64,000 nt of DNA from Yinghuangia soli (GTDB lineage Bacteria; Actinomycetota; Actinomycetes; Streptomycetales; Streptomycetaceae): the NCBI RefSeq assembly GCF_021502675.1, contig NZ_JAKFHA010000001.1:125400-189399 (forward strand). Direction: 5' to 3'. The notes under the pieces are model-generated. The model had not been told where the DNA came from, did no database searches, and worked only from the letters and a program-made list of their open reading frames with translations. This document shows positions 2,804 to 41,389 of the stretch, piece by piece (position 1 is the first letter of the stretch; every line of letters begins with the position of its first letter). The translations under genes and the position numbers were made by a program.

Positions 2804-4234
2804 ATGGATCTTCTTCCCGGAGCCAATGCGGCCTTGCCGCACGGCCCTGTCGCGGTGGACGTGAGCTGGGGCGAGGGCGTGGGGCTCGACGTCTCGGCGC
2901 TGCTGCTCGGGTCGGCCGGGAAGGTCCGCGGTGATGCGGACATGGTGTTCTTCAACAACCCGGCGGCGGAGGCGGGCGCGGTGCGGTTCGTGCCGGCCGC
3001 CCGTGGTGCGCGTATCGAGATAGACCCCGCGGCGGTCCCGGACGGCGTGCAGCGCATCGCGATCGTGGCCGCGGTCGACGTCGCGGCACCGGCCGGCACG
3101 ACCCTCGCTGCGATCCGCGGCATCCGCGCCGCGACCACGGCCACGGGCGGCTCGGCCTCCTTCACGTTCGCACCGCCGCCACTGGACCGCGGCGAAACCG
3201 CGGCCGTGCTCGCCGAGGTGTACCGGCACGGCACGGGCTGGAAGGTGCGGGCGGTGGGCCAGGGGTACGCATCCGGGCTCGCGGGGGTGGCGGCGGACTT
3301 CGGGGTGGACGTGGCGGAGGAGGAGCCGAGTGCGCCGGCCGCGGTCGCGGCTCCGGAGCCGGCCCCGGTCGTGGCACCGGCTTTTCCGGCCCCGGCCTTT
3401 TCTTCCCCGGCTTTTCCTTCCCCGGCTTTTCCGTCGCCGACCTCTACTGCCCCGCCCGCGGCCGCTGCCGCGCCCGTACGAGTCCCGGCGCCCCCGGCCG
3501 CTCCTCCGGCGGGGGCCGCGCCCGTCCTGAGCAAAATCGACCTGAACAAGGCTGCGTCCGCCTCGATCTCCCTGGACAAGGGCGACCCGCAATGCGTCGT
3601 CACCGCCACCCTCGAGTGGGACGGCGGCAGCGACCGGCGGCGCGAACTCGGCGCGGATCTCGACCTCTACGCGCTGTTCATCCCGGCCGACCGGGTCGCC
3701 GGTGCCTCCCCGGCCACCATCGGCCGGCGCGTCGACGACCTCGAACTGTCCGAGCCGCAACAGGCCTGCGTCCTCATGGCCGAGATCGGTCCCGGCAACG
3801 GCACGGTCTACTGGAACAACCTCGGCAGCCTTCAGCAGCCGCCGTACGCCGCGCTCGACAAGGACCACGCGGTACCCGGCATCGAGACGATCCGCATCGC
3901 GCAGCCGGCCCGCCAGGGCTTCGTGCTCATCTGCGCCTACAGCGCGCTCGACAACGGGTCCGGCAGCTTCCGCAGTTTCGGCGTCCGGGCGGTGGTGTCC
4001 GACGGACGCGGCAATGCGGTGAACGCACCGCTGTACTCCGACAGCGAAGACTCCTACTGGGTCGCCATCGCGCTGGTGGACTTCACCGCCCCCGAGGGTG
4101 TGGCCATCCGGCACATCGAGGAGTACGGCGGCGGCTGGATGGAAGCACGGCCCGTCCTCTTCCCGGACGGAAGCTTCGCCATGGACGTCGGGCCGATCGA
4201 GTTCAAGGACGACGGCGACGGCTTCGCCTTCTAG
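2804..4234 (+). CDS. double TerD-domain stress protein
   Basis: 476 residues with two TerD-fold (calcium-binding stress / tellurium-resistance) regions. The first begins at residue 1 (MDLLPGANAALPHGPVAVDV, then WGEGVGLDVSALLL and MVFFNNPAAEAGAV) and ends near residue 175. A Pro/Ala-rich linker with repeated FPSPAF units covers about residues 185-245. The second runs from about residue 245 (KIDLNKAASASISLDKGD) to the end and holds GADLDLYALF, VYWNNLGS and the typical C-terminal IEEYGGGWMEARPVLFPDG. The ATG at 2804 is chosen because TerD proteins start at this strand. It is a lone gene divergent from lon. TerD proteins are linked to membrane and oxidative stress; its exact role is unknown. Confidence 0.85.
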   Translation: MDLLPGANAALPHGPVAVDVSWGEGVGLDVSALLLGSAGKVRGDADMVFFNNPAAEAGAVRFVPAARGARIEIDPAAVPDGVQRIAIVAAVDVAAPAGTTLAAIRGIRAATTATGGSASFTFAPPPLDRGETAAVLAEVYRHGTGWKVRAVGQGYASGLAGVAADFGVDVAEEEPSAPAAVAAPEPAPVVAPAFPAPAFSSPAFPSPAFPSPTSTAPPAAAAAPVRVPAPPAAPPAGAAPVLSKIDLNKAASASISLDKGDPQCVVTATLEWDGGSDRRRELGADLDLYALFIPADRVAGASPATIGRRVDDLELSEPQQACVLMAEIGPGNGTVYWNNLGSLQQPPYAALDKDHAVPGIETIRIAQPARQGFVLICAYSALDNGSGSFRSFGVRAVVSDGRGNAVNAPLYSDSEDSYWVAIALVDFTAPEGVAIRHIEEYGGGWMEARPVLFPDGSFAMDVGPIEFKDDGDGFAF

Positions 4235-16074: not shown

Positions 16075-16599
16075 TCAGGCAGGCAGTACAACCGCCCGCC
16101 ACAGCGAATGACGCCGACTTTTCACATCCGGGTCTTCGGACGCCACGGCATCGAGAAACAGGTGGCAACTCTCGTAGTAGTCGCCGCCGAGCTCGTCGTC
16201 CTCGATCTGCGAAACCCAATACCATCGCCAGGCAAAATCGACGAGCAGGCTCACCGATGAATTGATGTAATAGTTGTCCCGGTGCCAGCCGTCGGACGAC
16301 AGCCCCCACACTGCACCGGACGGGACATCCACCGCAATTTCAAGCCCGATCCAGGTTCCGAGCGAGAAATATGCGCGCCCCTGATCGCTGCACCTCGGCA
16401 CGACAGCCCGAGAAATGCAGGCATCAAAATTCACCCTGCCCATCACCGGAAGCCCCCAGCGCGCGAGTGACAGGCGGTCGATCTCGGGGATTTTCCACCC
16501 ACCCAGGGCCTCCGGATCCGGCAACGTCTGCTCCGCAGGGACAACCAGGTCGGCGAGAGGTCGCTTCAGCAAGTCAAGAACTTGCTCACATTTTCCCAC
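16075..16599 (-). CDS. SUKH-4-like immunity protein
   Basis: 174 residues, no signal peptide. The pattern is that of SUKH-4 immunity proteins: LARWGLPVMGRVNFD near the start, YFSLGTWIGLEIAVDVPSGA and VWGLSSDGWHRDNYYINSSV (the sequence before the conserved N-S-S), then a long helix SLLVDFAWRWYWVSQI. It lies 51 bases downstream of the RHS toxin gene on the same strand and shares its locally lower GC content, as expected for a cognate immunity gene that protects the producer from the C-terminal toxin. The start is GTG at 16599. Family assignment is from memory of the motif pattern; the position makes the role likely. Confidence 0.75.
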   Translation of the reverse strand: MGKCEQVLDLLKRPLADLVVPAEQTLPDPEALGGWKIPEIDRLSLARWGLPVMGRVNFDACISRAVVPRCSDQGRAYFSLGTWIGLEIAVDVPSGAVWGLSSDGWHRDNYYINSSVSLLVDFAWRWYWVSQIEDDELGGDYYESCHLFLDAVASEDPDVKSRRHSLWRAVVLPA

Positions 16600-16650
16600 T
16601 ACTCGCCGCCCTTCGATCCCGCCGAGCCATTGACGAGGGACCGCCTCACC

Positions 16651-19600
16651 TCAGCGTCGGCGCCCCTTCATGAATTTGAAGATACTGTCCTTGTCGGCGG
16701 TATAGCCGCCATTCAAACTGTACGAGACCTTGGCATTCTTGTAGACCGTGAGGAGCGCCCTGCAGTTCTGGCGAATCGGTCCACATGGTATCCGTTCACT
16801 GTAGATCCGCGTGACAGCCAGCGGATCAACTCCCCAACGCGCAAGCTCTTCAGCAATGACCACCTCCGCGTCCTTACCCTTGGGAATGTTCACGTTGACG
16901 TTGTGGAACAGTCCATCAGGCGTTTCGAACTCGAAGACGGCGACGTTCTGCCCTGCGCCGAGGTGTTCGTTTTCCAGGCGATACTCGACAGCCATCTCGG
17001 CAAGATCGCCTTCCCCCAAACCCACACGTTGGTACGCACTCGTCGGGTCGTCGTCTTCGCAATCCGGGTCGGATGCGCCGCCCGTGTTGTGGATGAGGGT
17101 GTCGGTGCCGGCTACGTCGACGTAGTAGGTGTGGATGCCGTCGACGGTGAGGTTGTGGACCTTGGCCTGGCCGGTCCACGCCTTGACGGCGGTGATCTGG
17201 ATCCACGTGCCGGACGAAGTGCGCAGCCATTGGCCGGGCTGGAGTTGGCCGGCGTCGAGCCATTCGTTCAGCTGCGGGACCCAGAAGGGGTGTCCCGCGG
17301 TGGCGGTGACGGTGCCGGTGGCCGAGCCCTTGTCGCCGTCGGTGTCGATGGTGATCTCGACGAGGTCCTTGAGGCCTTCGCCGACGATCGCGGCGGTGAC
17401 CTCGCGGATCTGGGTGATCCCGGTCTCGGGGTCGGTGGCCAGGACCTTGTCGCCGACCTTGACGTCACGGATCGGCTTGCGGGAACCGTCGGCCATCACG
17501 ACCGGGGTGTCACCGGTGAAGCTGTTGTCCGGAGGCAGACTGCCCCGCCTCGGGCACTGATCGGGTTCTTGCTGGTCGGGGCGGCGGTTCGGGGAGCCGT
17601 CGCTCTGGGGGGACTTGGTGGTGGGCACGTCCTTCGTGAACAGGTCCTGGGCGTGCTTGTCCGCGACCGTATTGGCGTTCTGCGCGGTGCCGGTCGTGCC
17701 CTTGGACGGGTCCCACGTGTTGTCGGCAGGACGCGCGACCACAGGCTTGGTCGGCGGCTTCGGGTCCGCCCGGGGCGGGTTCTTGCCGCCGTAGACGTTC
17801 TGCGGGACGACCGGCTTCGGCTTGACCGTCGGCTTCGGCTTGCCGGGGCCGGGCTTGCCGGGGCCGGGCTTCCCGGGGCCCGGCTTGCTCGGACCCGGGT
17901 TGCTCGGGCCGGGGTTGCCGCCGCCCGTCGGGCCGGTCGGCGGGGCCGGGTCCTGGGTTTGCGTCGGCGGGTTCTGCGGCTTCGGGCAGCCCGGAATGTT
18001 GGGGTTGGTCAGGCACGCCTTGCCTGGGCTCCTCGGAGACGGCGGCGGGGGCGGGCCGCTGCATTCACCGGAGCACGGCCCCGACGACGACTCTTCGTCG
18101 TCGAGCAGCTTCTTCAGGCGCTTGAGGGCCTTGAGCCCCTCTTTCGCCGCCTTCTGGACGCGGGCCCGGCACTTGGGGTCCTTGCCGCACTTCTTGATCA
18201 GGATCTTCACCAGCGCCGCGACCGCCAACCCGCAGAGCGGGCAGTGCCCGTCCGGGTCGGTGAGGTTCATCGGCTGGCCGTTGGCGTAGCCGTAGCGGTT
18301 GGACTGGATGGACGGGTTGGGGTTGAGCTGCCAGTCGTCACGGCTGGCGAAGTTGCCGGTGCCCGGGGTGTACCAGCGCGCGTGCATGTTCACCTCGCCG
18401 GTGGCCGGGTCGGTGTACGCGCCCTGGTAGCCGATCGACGACGAATCACCCTGCTGCGAGAGCTTGTTGCCGTACGGGTCGTACGCGGTGGAGCCGGCGA
18501 TCGTCTTGCCGTCCGCGGACAGCATCGCGATCAGGTCGTCATGCTGGTCGTTCCACGCCAAGCGCTTCTGACCGCCGCGGGTCATACCCAGCAGCGACCC
18601 GTCCGGGAGGCGGCTGAAGGTGTCGGTGCCGTCGGACGCCAGGTTGTTCGACATGCCCGCGTACGAGAAGCCCACGCTGCTGCGCGAGGAAACCCGGTCG
18701 AACGCGTCGTAGGCGTAGGTGACACTGCCGTCGCCGACCAGGCGGTCGAACGCATCGAATCGGAGCTGGCGGGTGTTGCCTGCGATGGTGCTCCCGGCCA
18801 GGGTGCCGCGCGCCGTGTAGGTGTACGTGTCCGGGCCGTCCGACAGCAGGCGGTTGCGCGCATCGTAGACCGCGGCGCGTCCGCCGTTCGAGGTGCGGTT
18901 GCCGGACGCGTCCCAGCCGTAAGCCACCGTGTTGGTGCCGTCGTTCCACGACGTCATGCGGTCGGCGAGGTCGTAGGCGTACGTGTTCTGCGTGGCGCCC
19001 GCGAGACCTGTCGTCTTCTTCGAGGTGAGCAAGTCGTCGTTGGAGTAGCCGTAGGTGACGGACGCGATCTCGGTCCCGCCGGACAGGATCCGGTCCGACT
19101 CCAGGCGCCCCCACGTGTCGTAGGTGTAGCGGCGGCCGTCGGCGGCAACACCGTTGTAGATCTCGGACTTGAGCTGTCCGGCGCCGTTGTACTCGTACGC
19201 CGCGGCGGTCCCTGTCACCGGGTCGACGGCCAGCGTCAGGTCGGAAGCCTGGTTGTAGGCGAAGGTGGCCGTGCCCGCGGCGTCGACCCGTGTGGTCAGC
19301 TGCCCGGCATAGTCGTAGGCGTAGGTGGCATTCCCGCCGGCACCGGACTGCGCGGTCATCAGGCCGCGGTCGTTCCACTGGTACGAGTTGTACTGCCCGC
19401 CCGGCGCGGATGCGGTGGAGATCCGGCCGGCCAGGTCATAGGTGAAGGCCTTGGCTTCGGTCGGGTTCCCGCCTCCGGTGCCGGTCTCCTGGAGCAGTTC
19501 GCCGAGCGCGGTGTAGGTGCGGTCGCGCACGACGCCGTCAGGGGCGGTCATCCGTACGACACGGCCCGCCGCATCGTAGGTGTTCGTCCAGGTGCGGTCC

Positions 19601-22600
19601 GCCAGGCCCGGATGGGCCGTGGTCGACGGCTCGATCGTGGACTCCGGGAGCCCCCACGGGTTGTAGGTGTAGTTGACGGGATTGCCTCGGCCGTCGCGCA
19701 TGAAGGTGCGCTGACCGGCGGCGTCGTAGCCGAAGCGGGTGGTGATCTGCTCGGTCGCCGAGACCTTCTCGACCAGCTCGGTCGGCTGCCCCAACGCGTC
19801 ATACGCATAGGTGCTCACGCTGCCGCGCGGGTCGGTGACCTGGGTGACGTTGCCGTCCGCGTCGTAGGCCAGCAGGGTGCTGCGGTTCAGCATCCCGTCG
19901 CTGTCGTACTGCTTGACCCGGGTCGTCCGGCCCAGCCGGTCGCGCGTGTTGACGTTCCACGTTCCGTCGAGGTTGTAGGCGTGTGTGACCTCGCCGAACG
20001 CGTTGTAGTCACTGGCGACGCCGCGGCCCAGCGGGTCCTTCTCGGAAAGGACGGCGCCCGCTGCGTCGTACGTCGCGCGCGACGTGCCGCCGTCCGGGGC
20101 GGTCACCGCGACCAAGTTGCCCGCGTAGTCGTAGGTGTAGCGGGTCGTGAGCGCCTGCACGGTCGGGTAGCGCTCGATGACCGTCGAGGTCAGCGGCCGG
20201 CCCAACTCGTCGTACGTCATCTCCGAACGTGCACCGGACGCGTCGACCGTGGCGAGCAGGTCGCCCGCCGGAGAGCTGAAGAAGCGCTCGGTGGTGGCGG
20301 GCTGGTTCGGCCGCGCCGGGCTGTGCCGCTCGGTGACCTGGCCGAGGTTGTCGTAGCGGTACGAGGTCACCTTGCCGAGCGGGTCGGTCTCGGTGAAGAC
20401 GCGGCCCAGCTCGTCGTACGCCGTCTTGGCGATCGGCACGATCGGTGTGGTGCCGCCCGGCGGGGTGTAGGAGGGGAGTTCGGCCTCGACCGGTCGGCCT
20501 GCCTTGTCGATGCGCACCTTGCTGGTACGCCCGTTCGGGTCGGTCGACTCGGTGTTCTCACCAAAGGCGTTGTAGCCGAGCACGCTGGTCGGGCGGCCGG
20601 CGGCGGACTGCTCGGAGTTCGCCGAGATGGCGACCGGCGGCGCCACGACGGCGACCACCCGGCCGAGTTCGTCGTACCGGTACGAGGTGGTGAACGCGGA
20701 GGGGTCGGCGCCGCTGGCGTTGCCGCGGGGCGTGGTCGTGTGCAGCACCAGGCCGCGCTGGTCGCGCTGGATGGTCGAGACGGCGTCGGCGACGGAGGCG
20801 TCGCCCTTGGCGGTCTGGCGAACCGCGCGGCCGACTGCGTCGTACGCGAACTCGGTGACGCGGCCCTCGCTCGGTCGGCCGACGCTGTCCGCCGTCATGC
20901 TGGTGACCCAGCCGTTGGCGTCGTAGGTCAGCGTGGTGCGTCGGCCGAGGTTCCCGGGGTCGAACAGTTCCGACGTCAGCAGGCTGCGGGCGTCGTACGT
21001 GCGCACGACGGTGTTGGTGCCGCCGGTGACCTGCCGGACGAGGTTGCCCACCCCGTCGTAGCTGTTCTGCTGCAGCACGATGTCCTGTGCGTTGCCCAGA
21101 TGGTCGCGCACCCCGAGTTGCCTGGCCTCGGCCAGCAGACCGTCGTCGTAGTACTTCATCGCGGTCGTGCGGCCCATGGCATCGGTCACCGAGGCGAGGC
21201 GCCCGCCGGGGTCGTACGCCCGCGATTCGAGCACCACGTCGCGCGGGGTGCCGGACGCATCGCCGTCCCAGCCGAGCACCTTCGTCTCGGCCAGTTGGCC
21301 GCGCGGGGTGTAGGCCAGTTGGGTGGTCGTGCCCTTGGCGTTGATCTGCTGGACGACCTGCCCGAAGGCGTCGTACAGGATCTTGGTGACCGCTCCTTCG
21401 GGATCGGTCAGCGTCCAGGGCCGGCCTTCCGGGTCGTACGCCACGGTCGAGGTCCGCGGCACTCCCCCACCGGTCAGGTCTTCCTGCGTCCCGGTCAGCG
21501 GCCGGCCGTCCTCGTCGTACGTACGCCGCTCGCGCGCGGTGTGCGTGACTCCGGTGACCTCGTTCTTGACGCCCGGACCGGTCACCGACACGACCCGGGA
21601 CATCCGGTCGTACTCGACCGTCGTGGTCACGCGCCGCGTGGAACCGGCCGGCAGTGTCTCGCCGGGCGTGCCGGCGACAACGGTCGAGACCTGGGTCTCG
21701 GTCGTCCGGCGCCCCAGCGCGTCGTACTGGTACTCGGTCCGCAGACCCGCGGCATCCTGCATCGCCGCCAAGTCGCCGTTCGCGTAGTACTGGTACGAGG
21801 TGACGCCGCCACCCGGCACCGTGATCGACTTCAGCAGCGCGGGCGGCACGGTTCCCCCGCCGACCGCGGCCTCGGTCCCGTCCGTGTACGCCCGGGTCGT
21901 GGTGTGCCCGCCGGGCGCGACGACCGTGACCGGCAAACCCTTGTCGTTGTAGGTGTACGCGGTCTTGTACGTGTTGTCCGTGGCGGTCGCCGAGCGCGCG
22001 TCGCGCTCAGCGGTCGGCTGGCCGTTGCGCGGGTCGAGCGGGTTGGCGTCGTTGTTGTAGTACTCGGTGTACGAGGTCCAGCACGAGTCCTGGTCGCGGC
22101 ACGACGTCCGCGAGACGGTATTGCCCAGTTCGTCGTGCCCGGTGATCAGGAAGTGGCCGTTGGGGTCGGTCACGGTGTGCAGCAGGCCCGCCGTGTCGTA
22201 CCCGTAGTTGGTCCTGCCGCCCGCGACGTCGTCGAGCTGCGCGAGGCGCATCCCATTGAGGACGTCGTAAGTGCGCCTCTCCACGCGGCCTGCCGGGTCG
22301 GTGACCTCGACGGTGGCGCCCAGTGCGGACGCCGTGGGTGCCACGTTCGCGGCGTAGTGCGCGGCGACGGTATCGGCCGTCAGCGGCTGCTCGTAGAAGG
22401 CGACCTCGTCGATGCCGCCCTTGAAGTGGCCGCGGATGTTGGTCGGCTTGGCCGGCCAGGCCACATCGTTGACCGCGCCCGCGCCGATGGTCACGTACGG
22501 GTCGACTGTGTAGCCCTGGGCGTTGCGTTCACCGGCCAGCGTGCCGTCCAGGTACAGGCGCTGCTTGTTGTTGGGAGCGTCGAAGGTCAATACGGCATGG

Positions 22601-25600
22601 TGCCAGCGCCCGTCGACCACAGTCCGATCTCGCGTGAGCGGTGTGGGCTGCCCGGTCCACACGAGTCCGTAGAGCTTGTGGTCGGTCCCCACGTAAAGCA
22701 TGGGTGTGGCAGGTGTGTTCGCCTGCGTGTACTCGAATTCCTGGGTCGAGTAGCTGAGCAGCACACCAGGGCCGTCGGCCTTGAACCACAGTTCGGTGGA
22801 GAACTGCGACTTGCCCGACAGTTGTCCCTTGGGCAGGCGGATGTACGACTTGGCGCCGTCGAAGCCCATGGCCGAGTTGTCGCCCGGGCCGAACGCCCCC
22901 GCGACGTTGCGCTTGGTGTACCAAGCGCCGCCCTCGTCGGTGGTGATCGGTTCCACGAGGCTGTGCACGAGCGGGCCGCCCCGCCCGTCCAGCGGCCAGT
23001 ACCCGACCGGCCCGGCGTTCTGGACCAATGCGCGGTACTCGACCGGGGCTTTGCCGAGGCCCGCGGCGTGCGCCTGAATGCTCGGCGCGTCGAGGGCCTT
23101 GCGGTAGACGGCGACTTCGTCGATGGTGCCGAGGAAGTAGCTCTTGCCGGGCTGCGCCCGGGGCCAATCCCCGGTGGTGCCGGCCCCGATGTACGTGCGC
23201 AGCGCCCGCTCGTGGAAGACGGGGCCCTGGGCGGTGCCGACCACGGCACCATCCAGGTAGAGCGTGTGTGTCTGGCCATCCGTGGTCAGGGCGACGTGGT
23301 GCCACTTATTGTCGTTCACCGGTTGCGCGGTGACGATCTGCGGCATCGCGACGGAGCTGTAGAACCTCCCGCGGAGTTTGCCGTCCAGGTCGACGTAGAG
23401 GGCGGGTATCCAGTCCTGTTGGACCGCATCCTCCATGGAATTCGACTGGTAGGCGAAGAGCACACCGGGGTTCTCGGTCTGGAACCACATTTCGACCGAT
23501 ACCTGCGACGAGCCGTGGACGAGGTCCTCGGGCAGCTCGACGTAGCTCTGCCCGGTGAACCACGGGGCGGCCTCGTTGGCGAGGGCGCCCTTCGAACTGC
23601 CCCAGGAGACGTTCTTGCTGGTGCCGTCGCCGCTCCCCACCCGCACCGCCTGCTGCGAGTGCACCTGCCCGCCGTCCGGCTCGTCCAGGCGCCAGTACGA
23701 CAGCGGCCCCGAGGACGCGACCTGCGCCCGGTAGCCTGCCCCCGCGCCCGTCCCGGTGGCCTTGCGGGAGGCGAAGTGCTCGACGACCGTGGCCTCGTCC
23801 AGCGGCCGGTGGTAGACCGCGACCTCGTCGATCGAGCCGTACAGCGAGGCGTACGGACCGCCGAGGCGGGACGGCCAGGAGTCCGCGATGACACCCGCGC
23901 CGATGGTGACGTACCGGTCCGGGATCGAGATCGGCGCCGCGCCGGTGCCGATCTTGCGGCCGTCCACGTACAGGGTCTGGCCGGTGCCGTCGCCGCTCAG
24001 TGCGGCGTGGTGCCACTTGCCGTCGAGGACCGAGAAGTCGGTGGTGATCGGGTTGATGCTGCCGTGCCAGAACTCGCCACGCAGCTTCCCATCGCCGCCC
24101 ACGTACAGGATGGGCGTGCCGGCGCTGTTGTAGTTGCCGTCGGTCACCTTGACCGGCGAGGTGCCGGCCAGGACGCCCGCGCCCTTCGCCTGGAACCACA
24201 GCTCCACGGAGAATTCCGTGCGGTTCGCGAAGAGGTACTCCGGCAGGTACATGTGCGACCGGAAGCCGTCGAAGCTCGCGGCCTTGTCGTCGTTGGGCGC
24301 GAAGGCGCCTTCCGCACCCAGTCCCACCCAGCCCAGCCAGGCGAGTTCGCTGCCGACGACGGCGTTCTTCAGGGTGCCGTTGGAGGTCTTCTCGCCGAGC
24401 CGCCAGTAGCCGCGCGGTGCCGCCGCCCACACATTCTGCTCGTACGCGGTCGACGCGCCGGTGTAGCCGGGCGTCCCGACCTTCCAGACGCCGCCGTTGC
24501 CGTCGATGACCTGCGAGACGCGGTCGGTGGCGTTGTCGTACGAGATCTGCGAGTACGTGCGGCCGGTCGGCAGCGTCACCTTGGACAGCTGGGACACGGA
24601 CCGGCCGGCACCCCAGTGCTCCTGGACCACCTGGGTGCTGAAGTCGCGGGTGTACAGCGCGACATCGTCGATCTCGCCCTCGAAGTAGCCCTTGGGGTCG
24701 TTCTCCCAGCGGCTCGGCCACGACGAGTTGCTGCCGCCGGCCCCGATGGTGGCGACCGGGTCGAACGCCGCGATCGTGCCGCTGCGCGACCCGACCTCGA
24801 CGCCGTCCAGGAACAGCGCCTGGGCATCGCCGGACGCGGTGATCACCGCGTGGTGCCACTGCCCGTCGTTGACCGCCTGCGCGGACACCATCGGGTCGAT
24901 CGAGCCGTGCCAGAACTGGCCGCGGAGCTTGCCGTCGGCGCCGACGTTGAGCACCGGCACGCCGTTGGTGGTGTGCTCCTGCTGTTCGAGCGGCTTGGTG
25001 CTGAGGCTGAAGAGGGTGCCGCCCTTGGTGGTACGGAACCACAGTTCGGCGGTGAAGTACGGGGTGCTGCGCTGCGGGTCGTCCGGCAGCTTCACGTACG
25101 AGTCGGTGCCGTTGAAGACCGCCGAGCCGTCCGTCGAGCCGCCGGGGCCCGCGGCGGCCGTGCCGGCCGTGTTCCAGGCGACCGCGGTGTCGGTGCCGAC
25201 GCGCTCGACGACCTCGCTCTTGACCTGGCCCGTCGGCGCGTCGCCCATCCGCCAGTACGACAGCGGGTTGTGGTCGACGACCGCGGTCCGGTAGAGCGAA
25301 CCGGACTGGTACTCGTACACCGTGCAGGCGGTGGCCGAGGTCGGCGGGCAGACCTTGACCAGCTTGTCGCCTTCGTACGTGTAGTCCCAGGCCGAGACCA
25401 CGTTGCCCGGCTGGACCGGGTCGGTCGCCGCCCGGGTGACGTGCGCGCCCGTCCAGGTGAAGTGCAGGGAGCGCCCGGACGCCGAGTCGGTGGCCTTGCT
25501 GAGCCGCCCGTCGGTGTACGTCAGGAGTTGCTCGCGGCCGCCGATGTCGCGGACCTTGACCAGGCGCCCGGCCTTGTCGAAGACGAATGTCGTCCCGGTC

Positions 25601-28497
25601 GCGTCGAGCAGCGTCCAGGCCACGACCTCGCGGGTGTAGAAGATCGCGCCGAACGGCCCGGCGATCTCGGTGTAGCTGAACTCGACCTTCAGCTCGGACG
25701 GGTCTCCCGGCGGCGGCGTGTACGAGCCGTCCGGGTTCCCGCCGAAGCGGCCTTGGCGGCCATCCGCGTAGGTGAGCAGCACATCGTCGGCTCGCGGGGA
25801 CTTGGATCCCAACTTGGCATACAGATTGCGGTATTGGACCTGGATGCGCATATCCCAACGGGACGCCCAGCCCGCACCGAACGCCGTGTCGACGCGCGGG
25901 TCGCGGCTGTTGTACGTGCGCTTGACCGCCAGCTCGGGGCCGGCCACCTGGACGGCGGCATCGGTCGCAGCGGTGGTGTAGTTGCCGACCTGGGCGTTGA
26001 ACTCGTGCCCGTCGGTGCCGGTCGCCAGGTGCGAGGTAATGGCGGGCTGCGGCGGCTGGGTGGAGAACAGGTGCGCCGGCGGTTCGCCGCTTCCCGCGTT
26101 GCGGTCGCCGACGTACGCGTACCAGGCGTACGTCTCGCCCCACTCGAGGTTCCACGACGACGGGACGCGCCAGGACGTGGGGAGCCCCCAGCCCGAGTCG
26201 CGGCAGTTCACCTTCGTGTCGTCGCCGACGACATCGCAGACCACGTACTTGAAGTCCAGCCCCATGCCGGGCCAGTTGTCCGGGTCGTGCCCTTCGGCCC
26301 GCAGGACCGGGGTGAGCGTGGTGAACACCTGGCCGCTGTTCGGCCAGCGCGCGTCCAGCCACGGCGCGATGTTCGGCGCGCCGATCCCGACGGCCGGGCC
26401 GAGGTCGACGCCCTGCCACGAGAACCTGGTCGTGCCGTAGTGGTCCATGTCGAACCGGATGACATACGAACCCGCGGGCAGCGCCTTGATGGTCGCGTCC
26501 AGGGTGACCGTGCCGCCGGGCGGCACATCGTGCGGCATGTTCGTCCACGCGCTGTACGTGTTGGTGACGTCCTGCCCCGCTGCGGTCCAAATGCTGTACG
26601 TCAGCCTGAAGTTGTTGGTGGGCGTCCAGGTGTACGCGCTGCGGTTCGTGACGGTGACGCGCATGGCGCCGTCCTGGTTCGCGAGCACATCGCGGACCAT
26701 CTGGCCGGTCTGGTACGTCGCTCCGTACGGCGTGTGGGTGATCGTCAGGTACGGCTTGCCGCCCGGGTAGTTGTTGCTCCCGAACTGCTTCCAGCCGAAA
26801 CTGTCGGTCTCCGAAGCGCGCACGCTCAGGCCGTAGTTCGGTGCGCCGTTGACCCAGCCCTGCACCAGGTCGCGGCCGGCCAGGCCGAGGTCGATGCCCT
26901 CCCACGCCGCATCGCCGCACGGGTAGCTCGTGCTGCCTTCCGGGCGCCAGCCGTGCGCGAAGCTCTTCGTCGCCAGCGCGCCGCCGACCGCCGGCCCCGG
27001 GTACGTCTTGAGGGTGGTCGCATTCCACGGAGCGGTGACGGCGTGGATGGTGACCGGCTTGGGCTTGCACGAGTACGCCCAGGTGTTGAACAGCGAGAGC
27101 TGCACGCCCTGGATGTAGTGCTTGGACAGCTGCGAGGACACGTTCGGGAAGGCCAGGTACGACATGGCACGTGTCGTACCGCCGTCGTGCGTGCCGACCT
27201 TGAGGACGGTGTCCGAGGAGAAGTTGGTCGAGCTGTTCCGGCGCACGTAGGTCGAAGCGGACGTGTCGATGTTCACCGTCGGGTCGACTCGGACCGGGAA
27301 GACGCGCTTGGGGTCGGCCAGCCAGGCCTGGTCGATGACGACCTTGAGGGACTGGCCGCCGCCGGGGCGGTCCACGATTTCGAACCGCACGCCGTCGGAG
27401 AACGCGCCGTCGCCCGAACCGGGATCGAAGGAGGAGTCCTCCATCCAGCCCTTCGGGGTCCGGGCGCGCTCGGTGCCGGCCGCGTCGAAGAAGACGACGT
27501 CGCCGTCCGCGATCTTCGCGGTGAGCCCGGCCAGGTGCAGCGGGAAGACCCATTCGGTGGGCGCCGCCGCCGAGTTGAGGACCAGGGTCTCCTTGATGGC
27601 GGTGCTGCCGGCGTGGAACTCGATGTCCGCGCCGGGGCGGACGTCCTTGTAGGTGATGCGGTTGCCGTCGACCTGACCGGGGGCTGCCGCGGCGCCTTCC
27701 ACGCCGTAGGAGATGCCGAGGCCGTCGAAGGGGCCGAGTGCGGCGATGGACGGAGCGTCGGCAGTGGCGCCGAAGGCGACGGGGGTCTCGCCGAGCTTGG
27801 TCTGCCAGCCGGCCTGCGCGGATGCGGATGCGGGGGCCTGGGCGGCCGGGGCCTTCGCATCGGGCTTCGCTTTCCCGGACGGGTTCGCGGGTGCGTTCGC
27901 GGCCACCAGGGTGGTGTCGATCGGCTTCCAAGTGCCGTCCGCCACCTTGACGTTGACGGGCTCTTCGTACTGCTTGGTGGTGAAAGAGCCGTCGGCGTTG
28001 GCGAACGTCACCGAGGTCTCGGTGGCCTGCTCCGGGAGTTCCTTGCTGGTCGCCGGGTCGAAGCCGGTCCGGCCCGCCCTGACGTCGACCTTGGGCGCCT
28101 CGCCGTCGCTCAGGGCCCGAACGGTGGTCCTGGGCGCGGCACCCTTCACAGGGTTCTGCGGCCCGGACTTGACGCCCTCGTCCGCGGGCAGCTGGCCCGG
28201 GGCGACACCCGGCCGACCGCCGCCTTCGGTATCCGAGGAGGTCGCGTCGGACTTGGCGTCGTGCCCGCGGCCGTCCGCCGAACCGGCGCGCTGCTGCGGT
28301 GTCTTCGGCGCACCAGGGGTGCCCGGGGTCCACGGCCGTGCGCTTGCGGAGTTCGCGGATGCGGAGGTCGCCAGGGCGGCGCCCTCGGTGGTGACGGTGA
28401 AGGCGAAAGCGACGAGGCTGGCGACGGCGATCCGCCGTTTCGCCTGGCGGCTCGTCATGAACCGCACGTACCACGAACCACGACGGCCGACAGGCAC
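16651..28497 (-). CDS. giant secreted RHS/YD-repeat polymorphic toxin with Hint and deaminase-like tip
   Basis: 3948 residues. Signal peptide with hydrophobic core VASLVAFAFTV; DNRLRE-type domain about 410-590; start of the RHS shell (DUF6531-like) about 836-880; four LamG/concanavalin-like domains between about 1110 and 2050, each with a YWRL/YWPL and FNGTDSYVKLP-like signature; YD repeats about 2070-3320; RHS core (MHARWYTPGTGNFASRDDW) near 3360; Gly-Lys-Pro linker about 3525-3560; Hint module about 3657-3800 starting SFTGDTPVVMADG and ending LIHN; toxin 3805-3948. The toxin holds D3876-A-E3878 and P-C3905-x6-C3912 in the context IYSERIPCGPIRQNC, the zinc-binding layout of the nucleic-acid deaminase superfamily (closest to XOO_2897-like toxins in my memory). 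The RHS shell should encapsulate the toxin and Hint should release it. GGGGG lies seven bases before the GTG start; an ATG at 28458 is the alternative. Confidence 0.93.
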   Translation of the reverse strand: MPVGRRGSWYVRFMTSRQAKRRIAVASLVAFAFTVTTEGAALATSASANSASARPWTPGTPGAPKTPQQRAGSADGRGHDAKSDATSSDTEGGGRPGVAPGQLPADEGVKSGPQNPVKGAAPRTTVRALSDGEAPKVDVRAGRTGFDPATSKELPEQATETSVTFANADGSFTTKQYEEPVNVKVADGTWKPIDTTLVAANAPANPSGKAKPDAKAPAAQAPASASAQAGWQTKLGETPVAFGATADAPSIAALGPFDGLGISYGVEGAAAAPGQVDGNRITYKDVRPGADIEFHAGSTAIKETLVLNSAAAPTEWVFPLHLAGLTAKIADGDVVFFDAAGTERARTPKGWMEDSSFDPGSGDGAFSDGVRFEIVDRPGGGQSLKVVIDQAWLADPKRVFPVRVDPTVNIDTSASTYVRRNSSTNFSSDTVLKVGTHDGGTTRAMSYLAFPNVSSQLSKHYIQGVQLSLFNTWAYSCKPKPVTIHAVTAPWNATTLKTYPGPAVGGALATKSFAHGWRPEGSTSYPCGDAAWEGIDLGLAGRDLVQGWVNGAPNYGLSVRASETDSFGWKQFGSNNYPGGKPYLTITHTPYGATYQTGQMVRDVLANQDGAMRVTVTNRSAYTWTPTNNFRLTYSIWTAAGQDVTNTYSAWTNMPHDVPPGGTVTLDATIKALPAGSYVIRFDMDHYGTTRFSWQGVDLGPAVGIGAPNIAPWLDARWPNSGQVFTTLTPVLRAEGHDPDNWPGMGLDFKYVVCDVVGDDTKVNCRDSGWGLPTSWRVPSSWNLEWGETYAWYAYVGDRNAGSGEPPAHLFSTQPPQPAITSHLATGTDGHEFNAQVGNYTTAATDAAVQVAGPELAVKRTYNSRDPRVDTAFGAGWASRWDMRIQVQYRNLYAKLGSKSPRADDVLLTYADGRQGRFGGNPDGSYTPPPGDPSELKVEFSYTEIAGPFGAIFYTREVVAWTLLDATGTTFVFDKAGRLVKVRDIGGREQLLTYTDGRLSKATDSASGRSLHFTWTGAHVTRAATDPVQPGNVVSAWDYTYEGDKLVKVCPPTSATACTVYEYQSGSLYRTAVVDHNPLSYWRMGDAPTGQVKSEVVERVGTDTAVAWNTAGTAAAGPGGSTDGSAVFNGTDSYVKLPDDPQRSTPYFTAELWFRTTKGGTLFSLSTKPLEQQEHTTNGVPVLNVGADGKLRGQFWHGSIDPMVSAQAVNDGQWHHAVITASGDAQALFLDGVEVGSRSGTIAAFDPVATIGAGGSNSSWPSRWENDPKGYFEGEIDDVALYTRDFSTQVVQEHWGAGRSVSQLSKVTLPTGRTYSQISYDNATDRVSQVIDGNGGVWKVGTPGYTGASTAYEQNVWAAAPRGYWRLGEKTSNGTLKNAVVGSELAWLGWVGLGAEGAFAPNDDKAASFDGFRSHMYLPEYLFANRTEFSVELWFQAKGAGVLAGTSPVKVTDGNYNSAGTPILYVGGDGKLRGEFWHGSINPITTDFSVLDGKWHHAALSGDGTGQTLYVDGRKIGTGAAPISIPDRYVTIGAGVIADSWPSRLGGPYASLYGSIDEVAVYHRPLDEATVVEHFASRKATGTGAGAGYRAQVASSGPLSYWRLDEPDGGQVHSQQAVRVGSGDGTSKNVSWGSSKGALANEAAPWFTGQSYVELPEDLVHGSSQVSVEMWFQTENPGVLFAYQSNSMEDAVQQDWIPALYVDLDGKLRGRFYSSVAMPQIVTAQPVNDNKWHHVALTTDGQTHTLYLDGAVVGTAQGPVFHERALRTYIGAGTTGDWPRAQPGKSYFLGTIDEVAVYRKALDAPSIQAHAAGLGKAPVEYRALVQNAGPVGYWPLDGRGGPLVHSLVEPITTDEGGAWYTKRNVAGAFGPGDNSAMGFDGAKSYIRLPKGQLSGKSQFSTELWFKADGPGVLLSYSTQEFEYTQANTPATPMLYVGTDHKLYGLVWTGQPTPLTRDRTVVDGRWHHAVLTFDAPNNKQRLYLDGTLAGERNAQGYTVDPYVTIGAGAVNDVAWPAKPTNIRGHFKGGIDEVAFYEQPLTADTVAAHYAANVAPTASALGATVEVTDPAGRVERRTYDVLNGMRLAQLDDVAGGRTNYGYDTAGLLHTVTDPNGHFLITGHDELGNTVSRTSCRDQDSCWTSYTEYYNNDANPLDPRNGQPTAERDARSATATDNTYKTAYTYNDKGLPVTVVAPGGHTTTRAYTDGTEAAVGGGTVPPALLKSITVPGGGVTSYQYYANGDLAAMQDAAGLRTEYQYDALGRRTTETQVSTVVAGTPGETLPAGSTRRVTTTVEYDRMSRVVSVTGPGVKNEVTGVTHTARERRTYDEDGRPLTGTQEDLTGGGVPRTSTVAYDPEGRPWTLTDPEGAVTKILYDAFGQVVQQINAKGTTTQLAYTPRGQLAETKVLGWDGDASGTPRDVVLESRAYDPGGRLASVTDAMGRTTAMKYYDDGLLAEARQLGVRDHLGNAQDIVLQQNSYDGVGNLVRQVTGGTNTVVRTYDARSLLTSELFDPGNLGRRTTLTYDANGWVTSMTADSVGRPSEGRVTEFAYDAVGRAVRQTAKGDASVADAVSTIQRDQRGLVLHTTTPRGNASGADPSAFTTSYRYDELGRVVAVVAPPVAISANSEQSAAGRPTSVLGYNAFGENTESTDPNGRTSKVRIDKAGRPVEAELPSYTPPGGTTPIVPIAKTAYDELGRVFTETDPLGKVTSYRYDNLGQVTERHSPARPNQPATTERFFSSPAGDLLATVDASGARSEMTYDELGRPLTSTVIERYPTVQALTTRYTYDYAGNLVAVTAPDGGTSRATYDAAGAVLSEKDPLGRGVASDYNAFGEVTHAYNLDGTWNVNTRDRLGRTTRVKQYDSDGMLNRSTLLAYDADGNVTQVTDPRGSVSTYAYDALGQPTELVEKVSATEQITTRFGYDAAGQRTFMRDGRGNPVNYTYNPWGLPESTIEPSTTAHPGLADRTWTNTYDAAGRVVRMTAPDGVVRDRTYTALGELLQETGTGGGNPTEAKAFTYDLAGRISTASAPGGQYNSYQWNDRGLMTAQSGAGGNATYAYDYAGQLTTRVDAAGTATFAYNQASDLTLAVDPVTGTAAAYEYNGAGQLKSEIYNGVAADGRRYTYDTWGRLESDRILSGGTEIASVTYGYSNDDLLTSKKTTGLAGATQNTYAYDLADRMTSWNDGTNTVAYGWDASGNRTSNGGRAAVYDARNRLLSDGPDTYTYTARGTLAGSTIAGNTRQLRFDAFDRLVGDGSVTYAYDAFDRVSSRSSVGFSYAGMSNNLASDGTDTFSRLPDGSLLGMTRGGQKRLAWNDQHDDLIAMLSADGKTIAGSTAYDPYGNKLSQQGDSSSIGYQGAYTDPATGEVNMHARWYTPGTGNFASRDDWQLNPNPSIQSNRYGYANGQPMNLTDPDGHCPLCGLAVAALVKILIKKCGKDPKCRARVQKAAKEGLKALKRLKKLLDDEESSSGPCSGECSGPPPPPSPRSPGKACLTNPNIPGCPKPQNPPTQTQDPAPPTGPTGGGNPGPSNPGPSKPGPGKPGPGKPGPGKPKPTVKPKPVVPQNVYGGKNPPRADPKPPTKPVVARPADNTWDPSKGTTGTAQNANTVADKHAQDLFTKDVPTTKSPQSDGSPNRRPDQQEPDQCPRRGSLPPDNSFTGDTPVVMADGSRKPIRDVKVGDKVLATDPETGITQIREVTAAIVGEGLKDLVEITIDTDGDKGSATGTVTATAGHPFWVPQLNEWLDAGQLQPGQWLRTSSGTWIQITAVKAWTGQAKVHNLTVDGIHTYYVDVAGTDTLIHNTGGASDPDCEDDDPTSAYQRVGLGEGDLAEMAVEYRLENEHLGAGQNVAVFEFETPDGLFHNVNVNIPKGKDAEVVIAEELARWGVDPLAVTRIYSERIPCGPIRQNCRALLTVYKNAKVSYSLNGGYTADKDSIFKFMKGRRR

Positions 28498-40115: not shown

Positions 40116-40709
40116 TCACGACGACCGCACTTCGCCCGTCCAGGCATTTATCCCCAGTCCACGGAGACGGAGACGCTCCTTGTGGCTGATGAAGCGCGCA
40201 GTCGTCTTCCCCCAAATCGGCAGACCGTCAAGGCAGTCATCGGAAAGCTGCGCATTCAAAACCTTCAGGAGAAATTCGGCCATGCCAACTTCGTAGACAG
40301 ACCATTGGACGTCATTCTCGCGCCATACGACGACAGGCCAAGTACTCAAGTCGTCATCCGACGTAAGCCAGCAATAGATGTTGGCGAACCCGTCGACCCC
40401 CCAGGCAACCAGCGATTGTCGGTCCTCATCACCGAGGCCCTCGGGACCGCCTTCCTCGTCCCAGTTCCCGCGAGCATTCAGAGTCTCTTCGGACATCCGA
40501 CCAGAAGGCCGGCCCGGGTCCATTTGATCGGGGACAAGTATCACCAGAAATCGATCGATCGACCCGGGGCCGAAATGGTCCATGAAGTCCCGAAAGTCAC
40601 CGGGGAGATAGCGGCCTGTCGTAGTGTCGACAGGATGCCAATCGATTGGTTCGGGGGATCCACCAAGCGGCGGCATCAGAGCCAGCAAAGTTGCCACCGA
40701 TTCATCCAT
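40116..40709 (-). CDS. SUKH (SMI1/KNR4) immunity-type protein
   Basis: 197 residues. The SUKH signature is YLPGDFRDFMDHFGPGSIDR followed by FLVILVPDQ, then the mid-strand SLVAWGVDGFANIYCWLTSD, WPVVVWRENDVQWSVYEVGM and the closing helix AEFLLKVLNAQL. The ATG at 40709 with GGAG seven bases upstream is chosen over a GTG at 40745. It is the last of four consecutive SUKH genes. Such arrays are known to protect against a variety of toxins delivered by neighbours. Its GC content is lower than that of the flanks. Confidence 0.85.
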   Translation of the reverse strand: MDESVATLLALMPPLGGSPEPIDWHPVDTTTGRYLPGDFRDFMDHFGPGSIDRFLVILVPDQMDPGRPSGRMSEETLNARGNWDEEGGPEGLGDEDRQSLVAWGVDGFANIYCWLTSDDDLSTWPVVVWRENDVQWSVYEVGMAEFLLKVLNAQLSDDCLDGLPIWGKTTARFISHKERLRLRGLGINAWTGEVRSS

Positions 40710-40747
40710 ACGCCCACTCCGATCCAGTATCGGGAACCGCACCACGG

Positions 40748-41311
40748 CTACTCCCCGAGGAGACGCGCCAAGTTCTGCGTCGCGGAAACGTATGATGTGC
40801 TCTCGGGAAAGACGCTCCTATAGAAGGGCCGATCCAAGCTCCCCGAAAGCAACAGCAGCAAAAACTCGGAAAATCCGCAGGGATACTCTTCCCAATCGTC
40901 AAAATGACGACTGTAGACCACAGTGGTCCAGCCCTGGGGATCGTCCCCCAGACACCTCCAGAAGCAATAGTCACCATCCTCGGTGCACCCCCAAAGAACA
41001 ACGCCTCCGACCTTGGACTCCAACGCCACCGGAAACCCGGCCCGACTCCCCGGGACAACCGACGCCAGCGCGGAGAGCACGTCCCGATTGCTTCTCACAA
41101 TGCCGCTCACACCATTCCGGAAGCGAGGGCCGAGGATCATCAGGTATTCGTCGATAATGCCCTCACCGTAGCACGCTAAGAATTCACGGTAATCAGGCGG
41201 AAGAACCGATCCGAAATGCTCCTCCGCCGATCTCCACTCAGCATCCTTCGCCAGGTCCGGAGCCGAAGGCGGCGGCATCAAAGCTGCGATCTCATGCAAC
41301 TTGCCGACCAC
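40748..41311 (-). CDS. SUKH (SMI1/KNR4) immunity-type protein
   Basis: 187 residues. Core SUKH motif VLPPDYREFLACYGEGIIDE followed by YLMILGPRF, then VVLWGCTEDGDYCFWRCLGD, WTTVVYSRHFDDWEEYPCGF and the terminal SEFLLLLLSGSL helix. The GTG at 41311 has GAAGGGA nine bases upstream and is preferred; the frame is open to a TTG at 41362. It lies 38 bases upstream of the next SUKH gene and shares the same layout with only partial sequence similarity, consistent with divergence after duplication or separate acquisition. Confidence 0.85.
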   Translation of the reverse strand: MVGKLHEIAALMPPPSAPDLAKDAEWRSAEEHFGSVLPPDYREFLACYGEGIIDEYLMILGPRFRNGVSGIVRSNRDVLSALASVVPGSRAGFPVALESKVGGVVLWGCTEDGDYCFWRCLGDDPQGWTTVVYSRHFDDWEEYPCGFSEFLLLLLSGSLDRPFYRSVFPESTSYVSATQNLARLLGE

Positions 41312-41389
41312 TGAAACGATTCCCTTCGTCGGTTCCGACGATTTCCACGAATCCAGGATCAAAATCCAGGCCGCCTGATCGACTCATTG

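Follow-up and report, generated by a model that had tools for sequence, protein, structure and literature searches.

The window, a 64,000-nucleotide stretch of a Yinghuangia soli contig, harbors on its reverse strand a gene for an RHS/YD-repeat polymorphic toxin (positions 16651..28497 (−)). Read from the first GTG, the gene encodes 3,948 amino acids and contains no internal stop across its 3,948 codons. Judged from the sequence, M14 is a likelier start than this GTG and would give a typical Sec signal peptide (MTSRQAKRRIAVASLVAFAFTVTTEGAALA). Profile searches identified 20 RHS_repeat stretches, four Laminin_G_3 domains, DUF6531, DNRLRE and Rhs_assc_core. The four Laminin_G_3 (concanavalin-like lectin) repeats are located at residues about 1100-2070 (window about 22300-25200 (−)) and possibly bind surface sugars. 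The repeat body is followed by a PT-HINT module (17086..17493 (−), residues about 3669-3804), which matches PF07591 with an E value of 1.5e-16 in the whole-protein search and ends in LIHN. Residues 3805-3948 form the C-terminal toxin tip (16651..17085 (−)), and a gene for a 174-amino-acid SUKH-4 immunity protein (16075..16599 (−)) is positioned 51 bp downstream of the toxin stop. With a long repeat body, a HINT module, a variable C-terminal tip and an adjacent immunity gene, the locus has the make-up of an RHS-HINT polymorphic toxin. It is another member of an already described kind, with an XOO_2897-type deaminase tip and SUKH immunity.

The initial annotation had proposed a secreted deaminase toxin at the end of the RHS protein, and a Pfam profile search of the tip supports this, with the XOO_2897 type as the match. 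The tip matches PF14440 (XOO_2897-like deaminase) with an E value of 1.9e-11 and 44.4 bits, above the curated cut-off of 27. The match covers residues 49-134 of the tip fragment and profile positions 2-88 of 101. Apart from PF14440, no Pfam family was matched by residues 3805-3948 at E values up to 1; NCBIfam yielded no match for the tip or the immunity protein, and a PDB sequence search yielded no relative of either. The residues on which the proposal was built (LIHN at 3801-3804, D3876, E3878, C3905 and C3912) proved to be placed exactly when the translation was checked. D3876-A3877-E3878 (16864..16872 (−)), the predicted first zinc ligand and catalytic Glu, aligns column for column with the HxE of the family, which reads H-[SPA]-E in the relatives, and D-A-E fits the published toxin-deaminase range [HCD]xE with its catalytic Glu. 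C3905-x6-C3912 (16762..16785 (−)) provides the predicted second and third zinc ligands, and both Cys residues are invariant in the alignment with relatives. They belong to the motif YSERIPC-x6-C, in which two Cys follow Y-[ST]-E as is expected of XOO_2897-like proteins.

Structure prediction points in the same direction, with deaminases as the best fold matches. An AlphaFold model of the tip, computed from nine aligned sequences (pLDDT 75.5, pTM 0.74), shows the order helix, two strands, helix, strand, helix, strand, helix, as expected of the deaminase fold. In the model D3876 (D72 of the tip) is positioned just ahead of the second helix, where a deaminase would carry it, while C3905 (C101) lies just ahead of the third helix and C3912 (C108) within it, again a deaminase-like placement. 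Confidence is lower at the Cys loop, with a pLDDT of about 62. A Foldseek search with the model returned APOBEC3H first, with a best E value of 1.8e-3, and DddA was also among the matches, all of which had E values > 0.001. After structural re-alignment, blasticidin S deaminase (2z3g) was the best match (Z 8.8, rmsd 2.9 over 90 residues), followed by cytidine deaminases at Z values of about 7 to 8.4, and deaminase-superfamily proteins made up nearly all of the top 50 chains. Unrelated proteins can also reach Z values of 7 to 8. The predicted deaminase fold is regarded as firmly assigned because the match list is uniformly composed of deaminases and the PF14440 profile match is independent of it.

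The proposal of a SUKH-4-like gene beside the toxin also held. The downstream protein matches PF14435 (SUKH-4) with an E value of 5.4e-10 and 40.1 bits against a cut-off of 25.5, and the match is near full length (profile positions 4-176 of 179). Its model (pLDDT 85.6) gave weak structural matches, mainly to SMI1/KNR4, Syd or other immunity proteins, among them YobK (Z 5.8), FBXO3 (5.3), Tdi1 (4.6) and Knr4 (4.5). SUKH proteins are paired with XOO2897 deaminases in the literature, where RHS and HINT are also listed as partners of toxin deaminases (PMC3482391).

A bacterial genome scan with a three-sequence alignment identified eight relatives of the tip in actinobacterial genomes of Streptomyces, Promicromonospora and Actinospica, with 27-36% identity; a scan of genome contigs with the tip protein alone found none. 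All eight relatives match PF14440. In seven of them a SUKH-4 gene lies directly downstream of the tip, and PF14435 is matched by all seven of these proteins as well as by that of the window. Where enough sequence is available, several of the tips are seen by eye to come after a Hint-like stretch in a long open reading frame. The toxin-immunity pair of the window is thus a further example of a recurring arrangement. Tips from Streptomyces calidiresistens (L094), Promicromonospora sukumoe (L095), three Streptomyces sp. (L096-L098), Actinospica durhamensis (L099) and Streptomyces fructofermentans (L100) share with it the PF14440 domain, the preceding Hint where sequence is available, C-x6-C, YSER and the SUKH-4 gene directly downstream. 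However, they carry H-S-E where the window tip has D-A-E, and a loop His before the last Cys where the window tip has Gln. Searches of plasmid and phage proteins with the window tip, of plasmids with the immunity protein and of viral contigs for relatives yielded no matches. The relatives' tips matched three Streptomyces plasmids, with one protein annotated as 'nucleic acid/nucleotide deaminase domain-containing protein'.

PF14440 matches occur in 285 of 294 sampled genomes of the order, mostly in an open reading frame of roughly 800-1100 amino acids. At one such locus (L002:1-2472) the PF14440 domain retains His-Glu-Cys-Cys and is fused to a SUKH-4 domain. The gene, near-core in Streptomyces, joins a deaminase and an immunity-type domain. 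In the genome that contains the window, the toxin tip is the sole PF14440 match.

The tip and the immunity gene stand out by a foreign base composition. G+C content and GC3 are 58% and 69% in the tip and 61% and 70% in the immunity gene, against corresponding values of 70% and 93% for the RHS body, all of whose 244 windows lie above the tip. Similar RHS proteins in the genome of a congener carry unrelated tips followed by other SMI1/KNR4-like genes, the types being assigned by eye. Because of this low G+C and GC3 and the other tips in the congener, the sequences fit an exchangeable toxin-immunity cassette. A second patch of low G+C at 40116-41362 (−) harbors two SUKH-type genes with SUKH_6/SUKH_5 matches, which may confer immunity to the toxin of another locus.

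The zinc site was compared with sampled PF14440 domains, mostly from Streptomycetaceae. His, Glu, Cys and Cys occupy the four site columns in 113 of 123 distinct domains, and Asp-Glu-Cys-Cys is found in the window tip alone. Counted by alignment column among the 115 distinct domains that retain both Cys, the first ligand is His in 114 and Asp, encoded by GAC, only in the window tip. The initial annotation had regarded both this Asp and the C-x6-C spacing as unusual. The spacing is not longer than usual: Cys spacings in the sample range from 2 to 12, and x6 is the commonest (78 of 147 matches, redundancy included, a share swollen by the near-universal Streptomyces gene). It also occurs in seven of the eight closest relatives, and a long spacing as a novelty of the tip is ruled out. 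The claim for Asp stands in part. It is rare in the PF14440 family, yet it is not new to the deaminase superfamily, because a survey of toxin deaminases gives the ligand range [HCD]xE and 'occasionally D' for one subfamily (PMC3482391). That Asp or the spacing alters target or activity of the tip is speculation. Seven Streptomyces paralogues among the 123 domains (L049, L081, L082, L083, L087, L089 and L090) have lost all zinc ligands and kept the rest of the domain; Pro replaces His, and Ser/Gly/Ala and Thr/Pro replace the two Cys. From their sequences these paralogues are apparent pseudo-deaminases.

We consider it probable, at roughly 80%, that the locus encodes an exported RHS carrier from which HINT releases a zinc deaminase acting on the nucleic acid of rivals, with SUKH-4 protecting the producer and toxin and immunity gene forming an exchangeable cassette. 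The steps are modeled on other toxin deaminases (PMC7901873, PMC11062931, PMC3482391). The RHS protein would leave the producer cell by export, and self-cleavage of PT-HINT after LIHN probably frees the last ~144 residues. The freed tip would adopt the fold of a zinc-dependent deaminase, with D3876, C3905 and C3912 as metal ligands and E3878 as the proton shuttle. Its most likely target would be cytosine, or possibly adenine, in nucleic acid of competing bacteria; the UmbC1 deaminase toxin of Streptomyces causes C-G to T-A mutations (PMC11062931). As suggested by linkage, the SUKH-4 protein would bind and neutralize the tip, thereby shielding the producer. In the literature library that was searched, there was no biochemical or activity study of an XOO_2897-type toxin.

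The main rival to an active nucleic-acid deaminase takes the Asp as a sign of a weakened or dead enzyme that has lost its His, perhaps through a CAC to GAC point mutation, in a toxin that is decaying while carrier and immunity gene are intact. The confinement of Asp to one domain in 115 agrees with such decay, as does the Gln two residues ahead of the second Cys, where the closest C-x6-C relatives have His; the ligand-less Streptomyces paralogues demonstrate that ligand loss does occur in the family. However, the site keeps its Glu and both Cys, the YSER motif is preserved, neither the 3,948-codon frame nor the immunity gene is broken, and Asp is a listed ligand of other toxin deaminases (PMC3482391); a decaying toxin is judged unlikely. 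It is possible, and put forward tentatively, that the tip is an active XOO_2897-type deaminase whose Asp-Cys-Cys zinc site differs in metal affinity, rate or base preference from its His-Cys-Cys relatives.

A substrate other than nucleic acid, namely a nucleoside or similar small molecule, is suggested by blasticidin S and cytidine deaminases being the best structural matches. Yet fold matches are a poor guide to substrate, and DNA is the substrate of the toxin deaminases that have been tested (DddA, SsdA, a BaDTF3 member and UmbC1; PMC7901873, PMC11062931); we judge this reading decidedly improbable. It is very improbable that an error in sequencing or assembly turned a true His into the Asp; in favor of this reading, the two codons are one base apart and no other domain in the sample has the variant. 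Genome scans found no second strain with this tip, and the whole genome also has Asp at residue 3876, but it is the same assembly as the window.

Among described systems, the sce3516-like toxin deaminases (PMC3482391) resemble the locus in their HxE with occasional DxE, their RHS and HINT carriers and their SUKH immunity. They are set apart by description, as they have CxxC, whereas the window tip has C-x6-C and PF14440 as its sole Pfam match. DddA, SsdA and UmbC1 correspond to the predicted way of working, each being a secreted antibacterial tip that has a deaminase fold and is paired with an immunity protein. However, they belong to other subfamilies and carriers and their DNA-mutating activity has been measured (PMC7901873, PMC11062931), whereas the activity of the window tip is a prediction. 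DNA base editors derive from toxin deaminases, which also cause mutagenesis among competing bacteria, and a natural Asp-for-His variant would probe the importance of the first zinc ligand.
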